From Actinomycetes bacterium (GTDB lineage: Bacteria; Actinomycetota; Acidimicrobiia; Acidimicrobiales; Ilumatobacteraceae), in the NCBI GenBank assembly GCA_025360105.1, contig JANYCT010000040.1, positions 62,001 to 126,000 on the forward strand: a stretch of 64,000 nt of DNA. Direction: 5' to 3'. Shown in pieces: positions 201-35,754 of the stretch. The notes beneath the pieces were generated by a model. The model made no database searches. It was not told the origin of the DNA and was given only the letters and a program-made list of their open reading frames with translations. Position 1 is the first letter of the stretch; each line of letters starts with the position of its first letter. Both the position numbers and the translations under genes were made by a program.

Positions 201-726
201 CGATTTCGACTCGAGTCGCGGGTTGCACTCCGACGTGTTCGCCCTGAGCGAGATCTACGCGCTCCACGTGAATGGAGGCACCCACGAGGTCCGCGATGCG
301 TGGATCGGCGAGAGCCTGCTCTTCGTGCTGCGCGAGCGACTCGGTCTGATGGGCAGCAAGGGCGCTTGCGAGCAGGGTGAGTGCGGATCATGCAGTGTGA
401 TGGTTGGCGGCGAGCTCGTGTGCAGTTGCCTCGTGCTCGCAGCGAGCGCCGTCGAACAGTCCATCGTGACCATCGAAGGTATTGCTCCGGTGGGCTCGCC
501 AAGCGATGTGCAGCAGGCATTTGTCGACGCAGGAGCCGTGCAGTGCGGGTTTTGTACACCGGGACTCATCATGGCGACGCACGCACTCTTGGAGCGTTCA
601 CCAGAGCCGACAGAATTCGAGATACGTGAGGAACTGAGCGGCAACGTGTGTCGCTGTACCGGATATGGCCGCATCATCGACGCCGTCCAACGCGTTGCCG
701 TCCGCCGCCGAGCAGTGCAGCCATGA
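193..726 (+). CDS. [2Fe-2S] subunit of a xanthine dehydrogenase-family molybdenum hydroxylase
   Basis: A 177-residue protein with both iron-sulfur domains of the family. A plant-ferredoxin-type cluster motif, CEQGECGSC, lies near residues 58-66, and the second four-cysteine domain has QCGFCTPG near residue 118 and NVCRCTGY near the C-terminus. It carries electrons from the molybdenum site to FAD. I chose the ATG at 193 because it overlaps the upstream stop codon and gives normal family length; the frame is open further upstream but that region codes for the preceding subunit. The stop overlaps the start of the large subunit (ATGA), so the three subunits should be translationally coupled. Confidence 0.93.
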   Translation: MTDDFDSSRGLHSDVFALSEIYALHVNGGTHEVRDAWIGESLLFVLRERLGLMGSKGACEQGECGSCSVMVGGELVCSCLVLAASAVEQSIVTIEGIAPVGSPSDVQQAFVDAGAVQCGFCTPGLIMATHALLERSPEPTEFEIREELSGNVCRCTGYGRIIDAVQRVAVRRRAVQP

Positions 727-2999
727 GCGCGCTCGTCGGCGAGCGCACACGAGCAGGACGTCTGGGAGACAGCATCACCCGTCCAGACGGTACTGCCAAA
801 GTGCAGGGCAGCTTTCAGTTCTCGTCGGACCTCAACGCCGAGAACTGCCTGTGGGGCGCGACACTTCGTTCACCGCACCCATCGGCGCGCATCGTCAGTA
901 TCGACCTGTCAGCGGCTTACCGAATCAGCGGGGTCGAGGCCATTGTCACGGCGGCCGACGTGCCCGGCCAGGCCACCTATGGTTTGATCAGCCAAGACCA
1001 GCCGGTGTTCGCGAGCGACGTCGTGCGTTACGTTGGCGAGCCCATCGCCGCTGTCGCCGCCGATCACCCCGAGACCTGCCGCCGAGCCCTCGAGGCGATC
1101 GTGGTGGTGTACGAGGTCATGGCGCCGCTCACCGACCCCGAGCGGGTGCTTGATGGTAGTCATCCCCCGATCCACCCCGATGGCAACCTCATTCGTCACC
1201 AGCGGGTCCTATGTGGAGACGCCAATGCAACCGGTCCGATCGTGGTCGAGGGAACCTACGAGATCGGCATGCAGGATCAGGCGTTCCTTGGTCTCGAGGC
1301 GGCATTGGCACTTCCCGATCCGGGCGCGGCCGGGGTGGAGTTGTATGTCGCCACGCAGTGGTTGCACGAAGACCAAAAGCAGATTGCCGCTTGCCTCGGC
1401 CTGGCTCCCGCAGCCATTCGACTGACCCTTGGGGGAGTCGGCGGTGCCTTCGGCGCTCGCGAAGACATCAGCCTGCAGGTGCACACATGTCTGCTAGCGC
1501 TGCGCACGGGGCGTCCCGTGAGGATGCATTACAGCCGCGAGGAGAGCTTTCTCGGTCACGTGCATCGTCATCCTGCACGCATCTGGATGCGCCATCACGC
1601 AACTGCTGACGGTCTGCTCGTGAAGGTCGAGGCACGGATGGTCTTCGACGGTGGCGCATATGCGTCGACATCGTCGGCCGTTTTGATCAATGCCGTCACG
1701 CACACGCAGGGTCCGTACCGTTGTCCGAACGCGGTTGTCGATGGTTACGCCGTGCGCACGAACAACCTTCCATGCGGCGCGATGCGCGGGTTCGGCGTGG
1801 TACAAGCGTGCTTTGCGCACGAGGGACAGATGGACCGACTCGCCGCAGCGTGCGGTATTGATCCGGTTGATCTCCGGCTCCGCAATGCCATGGTCATCGG
1901 CGACAAGCTCATCACCGGTCAAGTCATCGAGAACGTGGCTCCTGTCGAGCGATGTATTCGTGAGACGGCCGCGTTGCCGCTGCCGGACGAGCCCGTGGGA
2001 GGCCACGATCGCAACACGATGAGGCTTCCAGGTGGTGCTGGTCGCACGGCCGATGCCGGCCACATTCGGCGCGGCATCGGTTTCGCCGTGTCGATAAAGA
2101 ACCTGATGTACAGCGAAGGCTTCGACGATTATTCCACAGCACGTTGTCGCCTCGCCGACGGCGTGGTCACCTTGAAGTTCGCGACGAGCGAAGTGGGCCA
2201 GGGATTCGTCACGATTGCTGGCCAGATTGCGCGCAGCGTGCTCGGTGTCGACGAGGTCGTGCTCGGCACCATCGACACGGGCGTGGGTTCTGCAGGGTCC
2301 ACCTCGGCATCGCGTCAGACGTGGATGAGCGGAGGTGCTGTCAACGCAGCATGTCTGAAGGTACGCGGCCTGCTGTTCGACGCCGTTGCGGCGCTTTATC
2401 ACGTTGATGCGAACAGCTTGTCCATCGAAGGTTCGGACATCGTCGGCGCCTCCGGCGCGCTGCGAGTCTCGGTCCTCGAGGCCTCGACAGGTTTGGAGTT
2501 CGACGAGACCGTCGAATATCGCCACAAGCCGACTGAGGATCTCGACGACAACGGCCAAGGTGACTGCCATACAGCCTTCGCCTTTGTTGCCCACCGCGCT
2601 GTGGTGGATGTCGATCCTGAGTTGGGTCTGGTCAAGGTGATTCAGATCGCGACCGCGCAGGACGTGGGTCGGGCACTCAACCCGCTCAGCGTGCTCGGTC
2701 AGATCGAAGGTGGTATTGCCCAGGGACTCGGTCTGGCAGTGATGGAGGAGATCATCATGTCCGAGGGTCGGGTCCGCAACCCGAGCTTTACTGATTACCT
2801 GCTGCCCACGTTCTTGGACATGCCATCGGTCGTTGTCTCGTTGATCGAGGAACCTGATCCGATCGCGCCTCTCGGTGCCAAAGGTGTGGGGGAGCCGCCG
2901 ACCATTTCTAGTACCCCCGCCATCGTCGCGGCCATCCGTGACGCGATCGGTCGTCCACTTGATCGCGTGCCGGTTCGCCCGATCGACATCATCGGCTGA
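723..2999 (+). CDS. Molybdopterin-binding large subunit, xanthine dehydrogenase family
   Basis: A 758-residue catalytic subunit with a molybdenum cofactor-binding fold. GGVGGAFG lies near residue 236, GAMRGFGVVQ near 350, and GAKGVGEPP near 718, the last carrying the conserved active-site glutamate. It lacks the AYxCSFR loop of form I CO dehydrogenase and the AYRGAGR loop of form II, so it is better called a hydroxylase of the xanthine dehydrogenase/N-heterocycle type. The neighbouring phosphoribosyltransferase favours a purine substrate, but the substrate is not proven. The start at 723 overlaps the stop of the small subunit gene. Confidence 0.92.
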   Translation: MSALVGERTRAGRLGDSITRPDGTAKVQGSFQFSSDLNAENCLWGATLRSPHPSARIVSIDLSAAYRISGVEAIVTAADVPGQATYGLISQDQPVFASDVVRYVGEPIAAVAADHPETCRRALEAIVVVYEVMAPLTDPERVLDGSHPPIHPDGNLIRHQRVLCGDANATGPIVVEGTYEIGMQDQAFLGLEAALALPDPGAAGVELYVATQWLHEDQKQIAACLGLAPAAIRLTLGGVGGAFGAREDISLQVHTCLLALRTGRPVRMHYSREESFLGHVHRHPARIWMRHHATADGLLVKVEARMVFDGGAYASTSSAVLINAVTHTQGPYRCPNAVVDGYAVRTNNLPCGAMRGFGVVQACFAHEGQMDRLAAACGIDPVDLRLRNAMVIGDKLITGQVIENVAPVERCIRETAALPLPDEPVGGHDRNTMRLPGGAGRTADAGHIRRGIGFAVSIKNLMYSEGFDDYSTARCRLADGVVTLKFATSEVGQGFVTIAGQIARSVLGVDEVVLGTIDTGVGSAGSTSASRQTWMSGGAVNAACLKVRGLLFDAVAALYHVDANSLSIEGSDIVGASGALRVSVLEASTGLEFDETVEYRHKPTEDLDDNGQGDCHTAFAFVAHRAVVDVDPELGLVKVIQIATAQDVGRALNPLSVLGQIEGGIAQGLGLAVMEEIIMSEGRVRNPSFTDYLLPTFLDMPSVVVSLIEEPDPIAPLGAKGVGEPPTISSTPAIVAAIRDAIGRPLDRVPVRPIDIIG

Positions 3000-28049: not shown

Positions 28050-28954
28050 CAGTGGCTCCAGACGATCGAGCCAACGGGCCGAAAGAACTGATTGCGCGTT
28101 CCGACGCTGGTGTTCGCAACGGCGCGGATGGATTGACCGACCAGATGCTCGACCCGCGCGTCATCGATGGTGGCCGACGAGTACGTCAACTCACTGCGCA
28201 GCAGTCCGATCGACTGCACCAACTCATCGACGCGTGTGGACGTCGCCATCGCGATTTCCTTGATGGCCTCCTCGCTGCGTACCGCGCTGTGCAGCAGCGA
28301 GCGAGGAAAGACCGAGTCGGTCACCAGGAATGCCCGCACCCTGTCGGCGGTGAGGGGCACGTGCCCTCGCAGGAAAGTGCTGAGTCCTCCGACGGCGCGC
28401 AACATCGTTGCCGGACCCTGATCGGGCCACATCCGCTCGACATGCATATTGAGCATTCGGCTGACGATGTCGAGTCGCTCAAGCGACATTCCGAGGTTGA
28501 AGAATGATCTCGCCTCGTCGCGCGGGGCTATCCAGTCGAACACGCCCTGCACACCGGCAAGGCTTTCCAGAAAGCCGCGGAGCGTGCCGCCGGGTGAGCG
28601 TGGATCAGGCCGCTCGCTCGCGGTTCGAAGGTATGCCTTGTTGAGCGTCTCGAAAAAGTCGGCGGGTATCGAGTCGCGAATGGATCGAGCGTTGTTGCGC
28701 GCAGCAGTGAGGGCCCCAACGATGGTGCTGGGTGACTCTGCCGATCCGTAGACGACAAGCACCAGCTCTGCCGGCGTGGTTGCCTTCTCGGTGAGGCCGA
28801 ACCGCTCGGTGAGCAGGTCACATCCGCGAGCCGGGTCATTGCGGTGTTCCTGCACGATCAGCTGGTGGTGTTCGATCAAGAGTCGTGTCGTGCCCTCGGC
28901 GCGCTCGAGATACCGACCCATCCAGAAGTACGACTCGGCCAGCCGACTCAGCAT
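28049..28954 (-). CDS. Alpha-E domain protein (DUF403)
   Basis: A 301-residue, mainly helical protein beginning MLSRLAESYFWMGRYLERAE, the conserved opening of the DUF403/alpha-E family. Members are always found with, or fused to, circularly permuted ATP-grasp proteins. The conserved acidic and Arg residues of the first helix are present. Function is unknown. It overlaps the upstream ATP-grasp gene by seven bases and the downstream transglutaminase gene by one base. Confidence 0.9.
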   Translation of the reverse strand: MLSRLAESYFWMGRYLERAEGTTRLLIEHHQLIVQEHRNDPARGCDLLTERFGLTEKATTPAELVLVVYGSAESPSTIVGALTAARNNARSIRDSIPADFFETLNKAYLRTASERPDPRSPGGTLRGFLESLAGVQGVFDWIAPRDEARSFFNLGMSLERLDIVSRMLNMHVERMWPDQGPATMLRAVGGLSTFLRGHVPLTADRVRAFLVTDSVFPRSLLHSAVRSEEAIKEIAMATSTRVDELVQSIGLLRSELTYSSATIDDARVEHLVGQSIRAVANTSVGTRNQFFRPVGSIVWSH

Positions 28955-30606
28955 GGCGGCACCTCCGTGGACGCTTCACGTTGTTGCTGTTGCTGTTGCT
29001 GCTGTTGCTGCTGTTGCTGCTGTTGCTGCTGCTCCTCCTGCTGGCGTAGCCGGTTGAAGGGCAGTACGTCGGGGCCGTGCTCGCGTGGGATGTCCTCGAT
29101 CTCATCGACGCTTTCGACGGCAGCGGACCGAATGATTGATGATGTGTCGTCGATCTCAGCATCGCCATCACCGATCTCGGTGAGCACCCATGTGTCCTTG
29201 GTGCCACCGCCCTGACTGGAGTTAACGACGAGGCTGCCCTCCACGAGAGCGACGCGCGTCAACCCGCCCGGCAACACCCAGATGCCATCGCCCTGATTGA
29301 CCGCAAATGGTCGAAGGTCGACGTGTCGACCAGCGAGCGTGCCATCGTCGAGCACCGTTGGGCATGTCGACAGGCCAACAACTGGTTGTGCAATCCACCC
29401 CCGGGGATCTGCCTTGATCTCGTGCATCACCGTGACGAGTTCCTCGTCGGTCGCGCGCGGTCCGATGACGATGCCGTATCCACCTGAGCCGGCTACCGGC
29501 TTGACCACCATCTCGTTGATGTTGTCGAGCACATGATGCATGGCCTCGGGATCTTGCAGATCGTAGGTTTGCACGTTCGGCAGGATCGGCTCCTCGTTGA
29601 GGTAGTAGCGGATCATGGTGGGCACATACGGATACAGACCCTTGTCGTCGGCCACACCGTTGCCGATGCCGTTGGCGATGGTCACGTTGCCGGCTCGCGC
29701 TGCGTTCACGAGGCCGGGCACACCAAGCACACTGTCGGGGAGGAAGTGCACGGGATCGAGGAAGTCGTCGTCGATGCGGCGATAGATCACATGCACCGGT
29801 TCTGCGCTACGCGTCGTGCGCATGAACAGCGCATTCCCTTTGCAGAACAGGTCACGTCCCTCGACCAACTCGACGCCCATCCGTCGAGCGAGGAAGGCGT
29901 GCTCGAAATGTGCCGAGTTGTGTACGCCAGGTGTCAACACCGCAACGGTTGGGTAGCGCACCCCCGATGGAGCCGATGCCTTCAGCGCGGTCAGCAACTG
30001 TTCGGGATACTCCTGAATCGATCGCACCGAGTAGGCCGAGAACAACTCAGGCACCACGTGCCCGAGGGTGCGCCGGTTTTCCATCACGTAACTCACGCCA
30101 GACGGGCAACGCAGATTGTCTTCGAGGACGCGGAAGACGCCCGCGCCATCGCGCACGAGGTCGATGCCGGCGACGTGCACCCGTACGCCGTTCGGCGGGC
30201 GAAGTTCGTGAGCGCAACGGTGGTAGTGCTCCGAACTGGTGACCAGCGCCTTGGGCACAATCCGGTCGGCAATGATCTTCTGTCGCCCGTACACATCGTC
30301 GAGGAACATCTCGAGAGCCTTCACCCGTTGGATGATTCCAGCCTCGATGCCCGTCCATTCCCCTGCGCCGATGACTCGGGGGACCAAGTCCACCGGCAGC
30401 GGCCGCTCTCGGCCTGACAACGTAAAGGTGATGCCCTGCATCGATAGATACGCGTCGCGTTGGAGGCCTCGCTTGACCAAGCCATCGCGCCCTATCGATT
30501 GCAAGGTATCCCACAGCTGTTCGATACCGACTCGAGGGGTTTCGCCATCGAGGAGCTCATCGACAAATTGCACGCCTTGTGTGTACCCCTGTTGTGTTTC
30601 GTGCAT
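28948..30606 (-). CDS. Circularly permuted ATP-grasp protein (DUF404/DUF407) with C-terminal polyglutamine
   Basis: A 552-residue protein with the permuted ATP-grasp fold. It has VRVHVAGIDLVRDGAGVF and EDNLRCPSGVSYVMENR in the first half, and the nucleotide loop GSGGYGIVIGP in the second. The family is predicted to ligate amino acids or peptides using ATP. The C-terminal tail is unusual: after an EE pair it has 17 consecutive glutamines and then a short REASTEVPPC end. The ATG at 30606 follows TACGAT (complement of 30615-30620) by eight bases, so it heads a leaderless three-gene operon. Confidence 0.9.
   Translation of the reverse strand: MHETQQGYTQGVQFVDELLDGETPRVGIEQLWDTLQSIGRDGLVKRGLQRDAYLSMQGITFTLSGRERPLPVDLVPRVIGAGEWTGIEAGIIQRVKALEMFLDDVYGRQKIIADRIVPKALVTSSEHYHRCAHELRPPNGVRVHVAGIDLVRDGAGVFRVLEDNLRCPSGVSYVMENRRTLGHVVPELFSAYSVRSIQEYPEQLLTALKASAPSGVRYPTVAVLTPGVHNSAHFEHAFLARRMGVELVEGRDLFCKGNALFMRTTRSAEPVHVIYRRIDDDFLDPVHFLPDSVLGVPGLVNAARAGNVTIANGIGNGVADDKGLYPYVPTMIRYYLNEEPILPNVQTYDLQDPEAMHHVLDNINEMVVKPVAGSGGYGIVIGPRATDEELVTVMHEIKADPRGWIAQPVVGLSTCPTVLDDGTLAGRHVDLRPFAVNQGDGIWVLPGGLTRVALVEGSLVVNSSQGGGTKDTWVLTEIGDGDAEIDDTSSIIRSAAVESVDEIEDIPREHGPDVLPFNRLRQQEEQQQQQQQQQQQQQQQQQREASTEVPPC
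28981..29031 (-). repeat. CAG/CAA tract encoding 17 glutamines
   Basis: Seventeen consecutive glutamine codons on the minus strand, ten CAG and seven CAA, largely in a nine-base CAACAGCAG rhythm. It lies near the 3' end of the ATP-grasp gene, next to the start of the alpha-E gene. Length changes would stay in frame. Confidence 0.95.
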
Positions 30607-31005: not shown

Positions 31006-31482
31006 ATGACCATCGCAACGAGCGTGCACAGAGACGAGGTGCCAGGTCGCGCTCAGCGCGATCAGGGCTTCAGCATTGTGGAGCTCGTGGTGACAATTGG
31101 GATCCTGGGCGTGTTGATTGCCCCGCTGATGTCGGCCGCGATTGCATCAATTCGAGCGTCGTCGTCGACTCGGAATCTGGCCCAGGTGCAGACGGTCTTG
31201 CAGAACGCAGCCGACCGCGTGAACCGTGCCCCGAAGGGTTGCGACTACACCGTGTATGCACAAGCAGCAGCCCAGTCTCAGGGCTGGGCTGCTGGCCAAG
31301 CCACCATCGTTCAGTCGCGCTATGTGCCTGGATCGACACCGGCGGCCGCAGGTAGCTGGGTCAGCGGCGCGTGCTCGGGTCTCGTTCCCGACGCATTGCT
31401 CGTGCAAGTGGTCACCGTGACGGTGACAAGTCCCGATGGTTCAACCAAAAGTTCCGTACAGGTGGTGAAGAGTGATATCTGA
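31006..31482 (+). CDS. Prepilin-like protein (type IV pilin/pseudopilin, PilV/minor-pilin type)
   Basis: A 158-residue protein with a class III prepilin signal. A charged leader of 21 residues ends in glycine, followed by FSIVELVVTIGILGVLIAP. Cleavage is expected between Gly21 and Phe22, leaving the conserved glutamate at mature position 5 and a hydrophobic helix. The rest is a small globular domain with two cysteines. It is first of three overlapping genes (it overlaps the next by 11 bases) with the order of minor-pilin cassettes. No strong ribosome-binding site is visible. Confidence 0.86.
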   Translation: MTIATSVHRDEVPGRAQRDQGFSIVELVVTIGILGVLIAPLMSAAIASIRASSSTRNLAQVQTVLQNAADRVNRAPKGCDYTVYAQAAAQSQGWAAGQATIVQSRYVPGSTPAAAGSWVSGACSGLVPDALLVQVVTVTVTSPDGSTKSSVQVVKSDI

Positions 31483-34303
31483 CCAAACACATTCGCGTCG
31501 TGACGACGGGATCAGCCTCGTCGAGATCGTGATCGGAGTGGCGATCTTCGGAATGATCATGTCGTCGTTGGCCTTCGCGATCATTACCATCGCCCGCCAG
31601 AACCCGAACACCACGGGTCGACTGAACAACGCCCGATCTGAGGAGGGCGTTGGACTCTGGATGCCCGCAGATCTTTCATCGGCACAAACGGTGAGCGTGC
31701 TGCCCGGCGCATCGCCGTGCAGCCCGAACTGCCCCGTTGGCCTGAATGTCGGTGGTTCGAACGCGCTCATGCTTACATGGACCACCCAAGATGCGGGCTC
31801 AACGTCAGCGGTCACCACCACCACCACCGTGTCCTATCGCTACGTGCAGGTCGGCACCGAGTGGCAGATCATCCGTGTCAAGTGCGTCAGCATCGCTGGA
31901 GGCGCTCCAACGTGTTCGTCCGCCGTTGTGTTGCACAATCTCGATGCGCCACCGGATGGTCAGACCTGGATACCAGGCACCACCGTTCCGAGTTGGGTTA
32001 TCCAGGTGAGCCAACCCCTCGATCCTGCGGACCCAGGTACTACAGGCACAACGATTCTGGCGAACCCGGCCACGTCGAAGAACGCGCAGCGTGTGCTTGT
32101 AACCATCAATGGTGGCGGCAATGCGGCCGGCGCGGGCGGTGGTCAGAACCAGATCAGCCTCAGCGCGGGCGGCACGAACCGCAAGACGATCGATGCTGCG
32201 AGCCTGAATGGAACTCCGACATTCAGTCAAACGCAGTCCCGCTGCGGCGGCAATATCGTTCTCATCGTCGATACCTCCGGGTCGATCGGCGCCTCGTCGA
32301 TGACCTCCATCAGAAACGCAATCAGCAGCTTCATTGACAAGTTCGAGGGCACCCCTGTGAAGCTCGAGCTGGTCACGTTCAGCACGAAGGCAACCGTGCT
32401 CGGCACGTCCGGTTGGACCCGCTACTTCGACATGTTGAACGCCGCCGACGTTGCGACGCTGCGCAGCGCCTTGTCTTCGCTGGTGTCGAGCGGTTCCACG
32501 AACTACGAAGACGCCTGGTATCGCACGTTCTTCAATACCGACGGTACGACTCAGAGCATCATCCCCGACCTGGTCGTGATGTTCACCGACGGTATCCCCA
32601 ACTACAGCCGTCTGAACGCCACGAACGCGACTGGACCCACGTTGCCGCCTGCGGCCCTGGTTGGGTACCCGGCTGCAAACGGCAGCGCATACAACCAGGA
32701 GGCCTTCTATCGCGCCAACGAAATTGCTCGCCTGTTCCGGTCAACCGTGAAGTTCATCGGTGTGGGCGTTGGCACCGAGATCGCAGGCACGTCATCGTGG
32801 ATCAACAGCGTGTTGGGTTGGCACTACACCTACCAGAGGGGCTACCAACCAGTTCTCCAGCGCAGTTTCCATTATCAGCGGAACTTCCATTATCAGCGGA
32901 GCTTTCACTACCAGCGGAGCTTTCACTACCAGCGCAGTTTCCATTATCAGCGCAGTTTCCATTATCAGCGCAGTTTCCATTATCAGCGCAGTTTCCATTA
33001 TCAGCGGAGCTTTCACTATCAGCGCAGTTACCACTACCAGGCCAAGGTGAGTGGCACCTGGACAACCATGCTGCCGACCGACCCGAGGTATACGAGCTCC
33101 AGCAATGGCAACAAGCGCACGGTCTACGAGGCAGCGCTCAACAACAGCTTCGACTTCTGGGATGCCGACACGACGCTGGCCAACTACAACGCAGCAGTCA
33201 CAAACGGGCGGCGCATCACATTCGAAGCAGCGTCGGGAAGCAACGACTTCTGGGAGGCCAACACCACCTTGGCGCTCTACAACGCTGCGGTGTCCACCGG
33301 TCGCCGCATCACCTACGAGGCGACGTCGGGAACCAACGACTTCTGGGAGACCGACACGACGCTCGCGCTCTACAACGCCGCTGTGTCCACGGGTCGCCGC
33401 ATCACGTACGAGGCGTCCACCGGCTCGAACGACAACTGGGAGGCCAGCACCACTCTGGCGTTGTACAACGCGGCCGTGTCAGGCGGCAGGCGTATTGCAT
33501 ATGGCGTGCCCACTGGGACAAATGACTACTGGGAAGACACCACGCAAGCGCTGTTCAACGTGGGGAACACGACGAGCGACGAGACCGATGGTTGGCGAGA
33601 CAGGCTGTACGCGGCACCGTACGTAGCCTGGGAGAACACCACCCTGACGTTGTACAACGCGAACAACACAACAGCCGACTCGACCGATGGCTGGCAGGTC
33701 ATTCAGGACTACTCGTTGCCGTTCGACAGCTTTACCACCAACAGCGTGACCACCAACAACAGCACGATTCTGACTCGGTTGATCGCAGGTAACGACTATG
33801 GCGTGTCGGCCATATTGTCGGCTGGTGCATACACCAACGCAGCGCAGGCAAACATGTACGTCATGCCGGACTACACGGCGCTGCCCGCCGCGTTGCAGGC
33901 GGTGGCCCTCTCGCAGTGCGGCGGCACGATCACGCTGCAGACCAAGGTTGGCACCAGCGCAGCCGCGGACCCGTTCACCTACCAGAACACGGCGACGAAG
34001 GACTCGAACGGTACTGCAATCAACATGGGTCAGAACGCGGTGACGACGTCGGCGCAGTTCACGAGCGGCACGTTGGACTTCTCGATCCCGAGCGGTCAGT
34101 ACCTCACCGTCGACATCCAGCCACAGAATCTTTCGGTGCTCACCGGCTACAACCCGTCGAGTTGGTCGTGCAAAGCCGGCCCGAATACGCGTACCTTCAC
34201 GACGATTCCGATCGCCGGGACCACGTGGACAGGTATCCGGGTGCAGGTCGCGGCGAACGAGGCGGTCTCGTGTATCCAAACCGTCACCCGTGTGACGCCA
34301 TGA
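31472..34303 (+). CDS. Giant prepilin-like protein with vWA domain, tandem repeats and prealbumin/SpaA-like tail
   Basis: 943 residues. Residues 1-40 are a prepilin signal: Gly13, then ISLVEIVIGVAIFG, with Glu at mature position 5 as in PilW-type minor pilins. Residues about 260-450 form a von Willebrand A domain with the MIDAS motif DTSGS at 267-271 and a second ligand loop in FTDG (Asp373). Residues 464-523 are ten copies of RSFHYQ or close variants, and residues 548 onward are 31-residue repeats. After about residue 790 a segment resembling the last vWA strand/helix (MPDYTALPAALQAVA) leads into QCGGTITLQTKV, a prealbumin/SpaA-like domain to the C-terminus. I infer a pilus- or surface-anchored adhesin; it combines roles usually split between PilW and PilY1. 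The repeat array seems inserted in the vWA domain. Confidence 0.85.
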   Translation: MISDQTHSRRDDGISLVEIVIGVAIFGMIMSSLAFAIITIARQNPNTTGRLNNARSEEGVGLWMPADLSSAQTVSVLPGASPCSPNCPVGLNVGGSNALMLTWTTQDAGSTSAVTTTTTVSYRYVQVGTEWQIIRVKCVSIAGGAPTCSSAVVLHNLDAPPDGQTWIPGTTVPSWVIQVSQPLDPADPGTTGTTILANPATSKNAQRVLVTINGGGNAAGAGGGQNQISLSAGGTNRKTIDAASLNGTPTFSQTQSRCGGNIVLIVDTSGSIGASSMTSIRNAISSFIDKFEGTPVKLELVTFSTKATVLGTSGWTRYFDMLNAADVATLRSALSSLVSSGSTNYEDAWYRTFFNTDGTTQSIIPDLVVMFTDGIPNYSRLNATNATGPTLPPAALVGYPAANGSAYNQEAFYRANEIARLFRSTVKFIGVGVGTEIAGTSSWINSVLGWHYTYQRGYQPVLQRSFHYQRNFHYQRSFHYQRSFHYQRSFHYQRSFHYQRSFHYQRSFHYQRSFHYQRSYHYQAKVSGTWTTMLPTDPRYTSSSNGNKRTVYEAALNNSFDFWDADTTLANYNAAVTNGRRITFEAASGSNDFWEANTTLALYNAAVSTGRRITYEATSGTNDFWETDTTLALYNAAVSTGRRITYEASTGSNDNWEASTTLALYNAAVSGGRRIAYGVPTGTNDYWEDTTQALFNVGNTTSDETDGWRDRLYAAPYVAWENTTLTLYNANNTTADSTDGWQVIQDYSLPFDSFTTNSVTTNNSTILTRLIAGNDYGVSAILSAGAYTNAAQANMYVMPDYTALPAALQAVALSQCGGTITLQTKVGTSAAADPFTYQNTATKDSNGTAINMGQNAVTTSAQFTSGTLDFSIPSGQYLTVDIQPQNLSVLTGYNPSSWSCKAGPNTRTFTTIPIAGTTWTGIRVQVAANEAVSCIQTVTRVTP
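32861..33040 (+). repeat. Ten tandem 18-bp units encoding RSFHYQ
   Basis: Ten contiguous 18-base units without spacers. Units 1, 5, 6, 7 and 8 are identical (CGCAGTTTCCATTATCAG). Units 3 and 4 are identical to each other (CGGAGCTTTCACTACCAG). Unit 9 is a hybrid. Differences between the two unit types are all synonymous; only unit 2 (Ser to Asn) and unit 10 (Phe to Tyr) change the peptide. The unit length keeps the reading frame when copies are gained or lost. Confidence 0.97.
33113..33580 (+). repeat. Tandem 93-bp units encoding a 31-residue repeat
   Basis: Three full units of exactly 93 bases (33209-33301, 33302-33394, 33395-33487) start with RRIT[FY]EA and contain DFWE or DNWE, then TTLALYNAAVS. 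A diverged first copy (33113-33208, 96 bases) and a decaying copy after 33488 flank them. The units are clearly related but much more diverged at DNA level than the 18-bp array, so this array is older. Confidence 0.9.
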
Positions 34304-35754
34304 TTCGTCGCGGCGCACCACGGGCCCGGGCAGGGCGAACCGACGACGGGTCCGCACTGGTCCTTGCCTTGGTCATGGTGCTCGTGTGTTCCTTGGTGGT
34401 TCTACCGGTACTCACGTACGCAATTGCGGTCACGCGGTCGACCCGCGTCCTGCAATCGAAGTCGGTGTCGGTCGAGGCGGCAAAGGGTGGGCTGCGGACC
34501 ACACTCGCGGATCCGATATCGCTGTACAAGACGTGCGACCTGGCCGGGCTCACCGTCTCGGTCTCGCTTGCCTCGCCGGGGCTCACTACGCCGGTCACGA
34601 ACAAGTGCTACAAGATGAGCGATGTCCAGGCGCAGGACCCCACCAGCCTGCGTTACGCCATAGCGGCCACACAGGTGGGCGCTACGCTGCCGACCGGTTA
34701 TAGCGGGTTGGCCTATCCGGGCTCGGGAGGAACGCCAGAGAACGCGTGGCAGAACGCCGATTCGCTGACATCGACGTTCAACACCATCTGGGCGCCGTAT
34801 CTGCCGGTTCACGGTCTCAACCAGCGCTCTGCAACCCCCTACTCGATGCCGAGCGGCTTCCCGACATGCTCGGTCTACTTCCCCGGCACGTACAAGGATC
34901 CCGTGACGATCACCGGATCCACGCCGGTGTTCTTCACCTCGGGCATCTATTACTTCGAGGACCCCGTGCGTATCAGCGGCAACGCCAACGTCGTGGTTGG
35001 CGATGGCGCCACACAGGGATGCACAACGGATCAGCAGGCTGCGTTCTACGCGACCAACGCGCCGGCCACCCACAACGTCACCGGCCTCGGCGCAACCTTC
35101 GTGTTCGGCGACGCCGGTCGGCTCGTCGTCGACAACGTGACGAGCGGGACATCGCTCAGCCTCATCTTCAATCAGCGATACGTGGCACCCACCGATATCA
35201 GCTCGGCGCCCTCGGCGGGGGTGTCGATCGAGTCGGTCAACGGCGTCGCGTCGGGTTCGGACGCCATCGACCTGAGTCTGCCCGGCTACCTGTCGGTACC
35301 GCAGTCGAGTGTCGGCGGCGCAACGGTCACGCTGGCAACCGCGCAGCAATACCTGCCATCCACGCTCGTGCCCGTTTCGCCGGTGGCTCCAGCGGTGGTG
35401 CCGACGAACCCATTACCCATCGTCGATATCAACCTCAGCAACACCTCAACTGTGAAAGTAAACGTTCCCGGCTATGTGTACGTGCCGCAGGGTTTGGTGA
35501 ACGTCAATGTGTCCACTGCGGCCGCCGCCGCAAACAAGGACATCCAACTCCTCGGCGGGGCCCTGGCCGCCTCGTACACGGTGTCGGCGATCCGACCGTC
35601 TACGTTCGTGATCGGCTTGCTGAACCCCGTCATCCAAAAGGTCTTCAAGATCGTCAGCACGACGACAGGAACTCCTCCGAACATTGTCTCGACGGCCATC
35701 GTGCAGGTGAACCAGAATGGCGCCTACGCAATCAACTCCTGGGGCGTGCAATAG
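34300..35754 (+). CDS. PilX-like pilus assembly/surface protein
   Basis: A 484-residue protein whose N-terminus (DDGSALVLALVMVLVCSLVV) matches PilX-type minor pilins: a glycine-ended charged leader and a long hydrophobic helix, without glutamate at mature position 5. The long exported part is rich in Thr, Ser, Val and Gly, with beta-strand-like text such as SGIYYFEDPVRISGNANVVV, and may form a beta-helix or sandwich. It contains few cysteines. The ATG at 34300 overlaps the stop of the 943-residue gene (ATGA), so it is coupled. Longer in-frame extension upstream is the alternative frame of that gene. Confidence 0.78.
   Translation: MIRRGAPRARAGRTDDGSALVLALVMVLVCSLVVLPVLTYAIAVTRSTRVLQSKSVSVEAAKGGLRTTLADPISLYKTCDLAGLTVSVSLASPGLTTPVTNKCYKMSDVQAQDPTSLRYAIAATQVGATLPTGYSGLAYPGSGGTPENAWQNADSLTSTFNTIWAPYLPVHGLNQRSATPYSMPSGFPTCSVYFPGTYKDPVTITGSTPVFFTSGIYYFEDPVRISGNANVVVGDGATQGCTTDQQAAFYATNAPATHNVTGLGATFVFGDAGRLVVDNVTSGTSLSLIFNQRYVAPTDISSAPSAGVSIESVNGVASGSDAIDLSLPGYLSVPQSSVGGATVTLATAQQYLPSTLVPVSPVAPAVVPTNPLPIVDINLSNTSTVKVNVPGYVYVPQGLVNVNVSTAAAAANKDIQLLGGALAASYTVSAIRPSTFVIGLLNPVIQKVFKIVSTTTGTPPNIVSTAIVQVNQNGAYAINSWGVQ

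Follow-up and report, generated by a model that had tools for sequence, protein, structure and literature searches.

The hexapeptide repeats (RSFHYQ) encoded in the analysed stretch of DNA (the window, 64,000 nt of contig JANYCT010000040.1 from a member of the Ilumatobacteraceae) are probably a component of an arm, long and variable in length, carried by a pilus-tip protein of a freshwater actinobacterium. The reading favoured here, with moderate confidence, is that the protein is a modular type IV VWA pilin in which the hexapeptides (array A) would form the spine of a beta rod and a second array of longer repeats (array B) would supply one unit for each A unit, giving a pilus-tip arm of adjustable length. 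The coordinates of the locus are given in Table 1.

Table 1. Features of the VWA pilin operon and of the arrays within the VWA pilin (positions in the window).
Feature	Position (nt)	Strand	Description and evidence
Small type IV prepilin, 158 aa, operon gene 1	31006..31482	+	N_methyl (PF07963) Pfam match at E 1.9e-5; immediately precedes the VWA pilin gene in nearly all relatives
Modular VWA pilin, 943 aa, GTG start	31472..34303	+	Open frame; N_methyl residues 9-33; VWA PF00092, E 1.2e-10; carries the hexapeptide array
VWA domain, part 1	32237..32773	+	Residues 256-434; MIDAS D267, S269, S271, T343, D373; Pfam, AlphaFold, structural match Z 20.6
Two degenerate array A units, GWHYTYQ and RGYQPVLQ	32816..32860	+	Residues 449-463; same place as the GYH-type units of relatives; predicted strand 440-468
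Array A proper	32861..33040	+	Ten RSFHYQ units, residues 464-523; would be the arm's spine strand; sequence, TRF
Array B	33059..33730	+	Seven repeats of 31-34 residues, W...Y..N/A...GRRITYEA or DGW
VWA domain, part 2	33731..33919	+	Residues 754-816; structural VWA matches span 256..816; insert-less relatives run through
C-terminal beta domain, downstream of the conserved CGGT Cys	33920..34300	+	Residues 817-943; median identity of relatives 0.52; beta strands in model
PilX-like protein, 484 aa, operon gene 3	34300..35754	+	One N-terminal hydrophobic segment; overlaps the preceding stop codon

The three-gene order (small prepilin, VWA pilin, PilX-like protein) is kept in almost every close relative within the Acidimicrobiales, and the PilX-like gene lies directly downstream in most relatives whose contigs extend far enough. 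A relative of the VWA pilin was found in 21 of 61 related genomes, and the relatives belong to freshwater and other environmental metagenome-assembled genomes labelled Acidimicrobiaceae, Ilumatobacteraceae or plain Actinomycetota. Modular VWA type IV pilins are recognised by a VWA domain with a MIDAS and by a class III prepilin signal, further traits of the group being a pilin fold with a long N-terminal helix and an adhesive role in assembled pili. The protein has the VWA domain, with no variation among 30 relatives in the MIDAS residues (DxSxS, T, D). It also carries the signal (N_methyl): the PF07963 motif scored 17.3 bits in the protein scan (cut-off 21.2) and 21.4 bits in the genome search, it is matched in 19 of the 30 relatives, and G13 and E18 are invariant or nearly so. 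A Pfam search with residues 9-484 of the PilX-like protein gave no match. Elsewhere, the same genome encodes type IV pilus ATPases (one with an MshEN domain), a T2SSF/PilC-type protein and further prepilins; a search of it for the PilM family (PF11104) gave no match. A literature search on Acidimicrobiales pili returned nothing relevant.

A gene for the Pycsar effector PycTM (E 5e-20; L133:13059-13655) is found on contig C25 of the same genome, a few kb from type IV pilus assembly genes. In the sister species (reference L056; the contig is also labelled L010/L043, genome G007), another modular prepilin, 695 aa long and with no VWA match (L056:1849-3933), is encoded upstream of the operon and is preceded by a small prepilin of its own. 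Within the window, an ORF on the minus strand (28948-30606) specifies a 552-aa protein with a run of about 18 Gln near its C-terminus (28985-29043), for which Tandem Repeats Finder (TRF) reports a perfect 9-bp period; genus relatives match this protein only to about residue 507.

Array A proper consists of ten 18-bp units in frame with the ORF, in exactly the place and number given in the earlier note on this DNA, and has a TRF score of 226-249. One form of the unit, CGCAGTTTCCATTATCAG, occurs five times (units 1 and 5-8) and another, CGGAGCTTTCACTACCAG, twice (units 3-4), while the other three units have neither sequence. The runs of DNA-identical units (5-8 and 3-4) are present, and the recent duplication that had been read from them is supported. 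Amino acid changes are confined to two units (S to N in unit 2, F to Y in unit 10), and the variable sites among the units comprise five synonymous and two non-synonymous ones. With a synonymous share of 15-24% expected at random, this corresponds to P = 0.001-0.011, depending on transition bias, and agrees with the earlier comparison of the units; with so few variable sites, and with units copied from one another, the test is only moderate evidence when taken alone. The earlier note did not see that the array is extended upstream by two degenerate units, that it is followed by a second array, or that it lies within a VWA domain.

The hexapeptides begin an insert of about 310 residues in the VWA domain. 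The chain exits after the fifth core strand (427-433), from residue 440, and re-enters before the last helix; in relatives of 640-664 residues, which have no insert, the fifth core strand leads almost straight to the last helix. The distance from this strand to the CGGT motif ranges from 63 to 665 residues across relatives, with the core length kept. Core regions show a median identity of 0.40-0.52 and little change in length, compared with 0.29 and a length CV of 0.4-0.6 for the insert. The units of array B start at 33059, 33158, 33251, 33344, 33437, 33530 and 33629 (six given by a profile search, the first assigned by position); the TRF period is 93, and these paralogous units differ mostly synonymously. 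The larger inserts of relatives are likewise made up of two arrays, a short aromatic A followed by a B array with units of 28-34 residues. The A units are hexapeptides in the window and the sister species; L071/L072 have octapeptides (YHYTYTHS type), and many other relatives have GYH units of 8/9 residues. A Trp opens most B units, which also have a Tyr helix and in many cases DGWR. Sequence searches against Pfam and PDB returned no match for the insert, only the VWA and prepilin motifs. In some genomes there are at least two copies of the pilin-VWA-PilX operon (L048/L084 on contig C123 of G026; L051 in G027), and copies within one genome differ in insert length, from none to 5 units.

The lengths of the two arrays vary together. 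With array A taken to run from where the fifth strand ends to the first tryptophan of B, and array B from that residue to the conserved CGGT, the lengths in 24 proteins are correlated at r = 0.93. Phylogenetic contrasts based on a core-region tree have r = 0.85 (p = 1e-7), or r = 0.96 (p = 8e-11) when the genus of the window is left out. The length of the C-terminus, used as a control, gives contrasts of r = 0.06 (p = 0.77), and for a second control length, between the MIDAS and TDG, the trend is weak and not significant (plain r = 0.38, p = 0.08; one sequence lacks the motif). The numbers of A and B units are equal in 21 of the 24 proteins, the units having been counted by hand and most of the matched species coming from one genus; random pairing produced at most 13 equal counts in 100,000 permutations. 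The exceptions are L046/L074 (8 A, 10 B), L041/L072 (12 A, 14 B) and the window protein (12 A, 7 B). An apparent break in the reading frame of L075 falls near undetermined bases, and its interpretation as a frameshift was set aside; its arrays, counted by eye as 11 and 11, were left out of the statistics. The nearly constant match of A and B numbers across related species points to an arm built jointly by the two arrays.

In the AlphaFold model of the window protein, most of the VWA core has a pLDDT above 90, the N-terminus forms a helix (16-70) followed by strands, and the strand at 440-468 enters the first hexapeptides. Confidence is low over the remainder of array A (pLDDT 22-34 in the middle of the array) and most B repeats. 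In the model of a relative, L058, for which the alignment held nine similar arrays, residues 477-521 form one uninterrupted strand of 45 residues (pLDDT of the block about 84-93), and most B units include two short strands and a helix. Large hydrophobic residues alternate as expected for a beta strand in the window, L056, L071 and L072 (p of 0.0005 or less); by the same test, exact strand alternation is not kept in the 8/9-residue arrays. The structural role that the earlier note had suggested for the array is supported. Given the alternation and the L058 model, one extended beta strand is more likely than either of the forms that note had offered, a beta-solenoid and a disordered stalk. The hexapeptides themselves are modelled with low confidence, so it is from these two lines of evidence that we infer a strand fold for the window array. 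As strands assigned by DSSP need partners, the B strands of the models would be the obvious bridging partners for the A strand within the insert. Structure comparison matched the VWA fold across the insert (256-816; Z 20.6 to 4fx5, 20.2 to 9das) and PilB over residues 44-816 (Z 18.3; rmsd about 12-13 Å over both modules). When both models were searched for similar structures, VWA folds made up most of the matches, so the lack of a match for the insert carries no meaning.

Array A might instead be a flexible and sticky segment, rich in aromatic residues and Arg/His, with a length independent of array B, the correlation then reflecting overall insert size. The composition of the window array (29% aromatic, 12 Arg/Lys, no acidic residues), the low confidence of the modelled hexapeptides and the excess of A over B units in this protein would all suit such a segment, but it is unlikely in view of the one-to-one counts, the correlated contrasts, the confidently modelled long strand of L058 and the strand-like alternation of residues.

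Relative to the sister species, dN/dS is 0.147 in the array region, 0.146 in the pilin module, 0.153 in the VWA part and 0.135 in the C-terminus, with a higher value (0.27) in the B repeats. Purifying selection on the peptide, as previously argued, is therefore evident, but it does not exceed that on the pilin module, the VWA part and the C-terminus, and a special selection on the array is not borne out. The sister species has six exact hexapeptide units compared with ten in the window, the unit differences being synonymous only, and the arrays differ by 18 residues in length; the in-frame length variation that had been predicted between strains is thus seen between lineages. The 18-mer CGGAGCTTTCACTATCAG (window 33005-33022) is letter-identical in L056 (7393-7410), where the commonest unit is one base different. 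Since this similarity persists despite a flanking dS of 1.0-1.4, both DNA versions of the unit appear to predate the split of the two species, and an origin by recent drift within this lineage is not supported; later exchange between the lineages is a possible alternative. The codon TAT is over-represented in both arrays relative to the rest of the ORF. A search of 397 genomes of the order for the RSFHYQ pair pattern matched only the genome of the window, the sister species, which has the array, not being among those listed; the carriers found are the window and the sister species.

A tandem array that is prone to slippage, drifts in copy number and experiences ordinary purifying selection, with no specific structural role, would agree with a dN/dS like that of the remainder of the gene, with identical adjacent copies and with the hexapeptides having been found in two species only. 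It leaves the numerical match of A and B in relatives unexplained, and we regard it as improbable. The six-residue period and the 18-residue difference between the window and sister arrays would also be expected if the hexapeptides formed a left-handed beta-helix of their own, with three units per turn. In classical hexapeptide helices the inward residues have to be small or aliphatic, whereas RSFHYQ would bring Phe and Tyr; periods of 8 and 9 occur in the homologous arrays at the same place, and for one relative the model shows a straight strand, all of which make such a helix very improbable.

The window protein is the strongest exception to the matching of the arrays (residual -3.5 SD). A regression calculated without it implies 72 residues of A for its B, compared with an actual 95. 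The difference, about 23 residues, is the length of four hexapeptides, and four units (4, 6, 7 and 8) are extra copies with the same DNA as the unit before them. This agreement suggests a recent out-of-register expansion of array A as the simplest reading of the excess, with assembly error as the main alternative. An array length produced by misassembly of this metagenome-assembled genome would fit the outlying length of array A and its short, identical units, but is highly unlikely given the same kind of array in the independent assembly of the sister species, the intact reading frame and an array of only 180 bp.

Under the favoured reading of a two-array arm, the pilin module could be built into a pilus filament, most likely at its tip, and would carry a putative VWA adhesion domain. 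Between the fifth core strand and the last helix of this domain, the RSFHYQ array would be the outgoing leg, an extended, two-faced beta strand with Arg, Phe and Tyr on one side and Ser, His and Gln on the other. The B repeats would be the returning leg, each placing its short strands and helix on about one A unit, and the two legs together may form a beta rod beside the metal site. The length of the arm would evolve by matched additions to A and B, leading to a species-specific reach or binding surface, and in the window protein array A would recently have gained about four units beyond the cover of its seven B repeats. The more specific picture, of a tip VWA adhesin whose arm comes from two arrays obliged to grow in step and whose spine has here just outgrown its caps, leaving surplus units exposed, is put forward tentatively, at a little short of an even chance. 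If the two-array arm is real, repeat copy number would give a direct readout of arm length, and the relatives would represent a natural series of 2 to 14 units for the study of length change in repeat proteins with the register kept. It would also open a route to asking how environmental actinobacteria tune pilus-tip reach or adhesion.

VWA pilins are already known, while an arm length set by two separately encoded, number-matched arrays was not found in the literature searched; the available texts on PilB, CpaL and the ARM2 adhesins describe no matched repeat arrays. PilB of Streptococcus sanguinis is a bimodular VWA type IV pilin (PDB 7b7p; PMC8179133) that shares with the window protein a prepilin N-terminus, a pilin module (a probable one in the window protein) followed by a VWA domain with MIDAS, and extra arms on the VWA domain. 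The arms of PilB are small, the second being a four-stranded sheet, and no repeats are described for them in the available text (PMC8179133); the window protein differs in its insert of about 310 residues, its two coupled arrays and the C-terminal beta domain after the VWA domain. CpaL of Caulobacter crescentus, a VWA minor pilin-like protein of the Tad pilus, also has a pilin-like module and a MIDAS-bearing VWA domain split by an inserted beta-rich region (PMC12607857). Its insert sits earlier than that of the window protein, between MIDAS residues D160/T162/S164 and T470, and co-varying repeats are not described in the text available (PMC12607857). ARM2, an insert on the VWA domain of the sortase-pilus and type V pilus tip adhesins RrgA, GBS104 and Mfa5, resembles the window insert, on a presumed tip protein, in its location on the VWA domain and in emerging at the MIDAS side (PMC7835359). 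ARM2 comes after the strand that bears the final MIDAS Asp (in Mfa5, residues 257-355 after Asp252; PMC7835359), whereas the equivalent loop of the window protein (376-408) is short and its insert comes one core strand later. PilY1 of type IVa pili is a VWA tip protein that works with minor pilins (PMC12607857), as the window protein may be, but it is a separate, non-pilin protein, whereas the window protein combines the VWA domain and the pilin in one chain.
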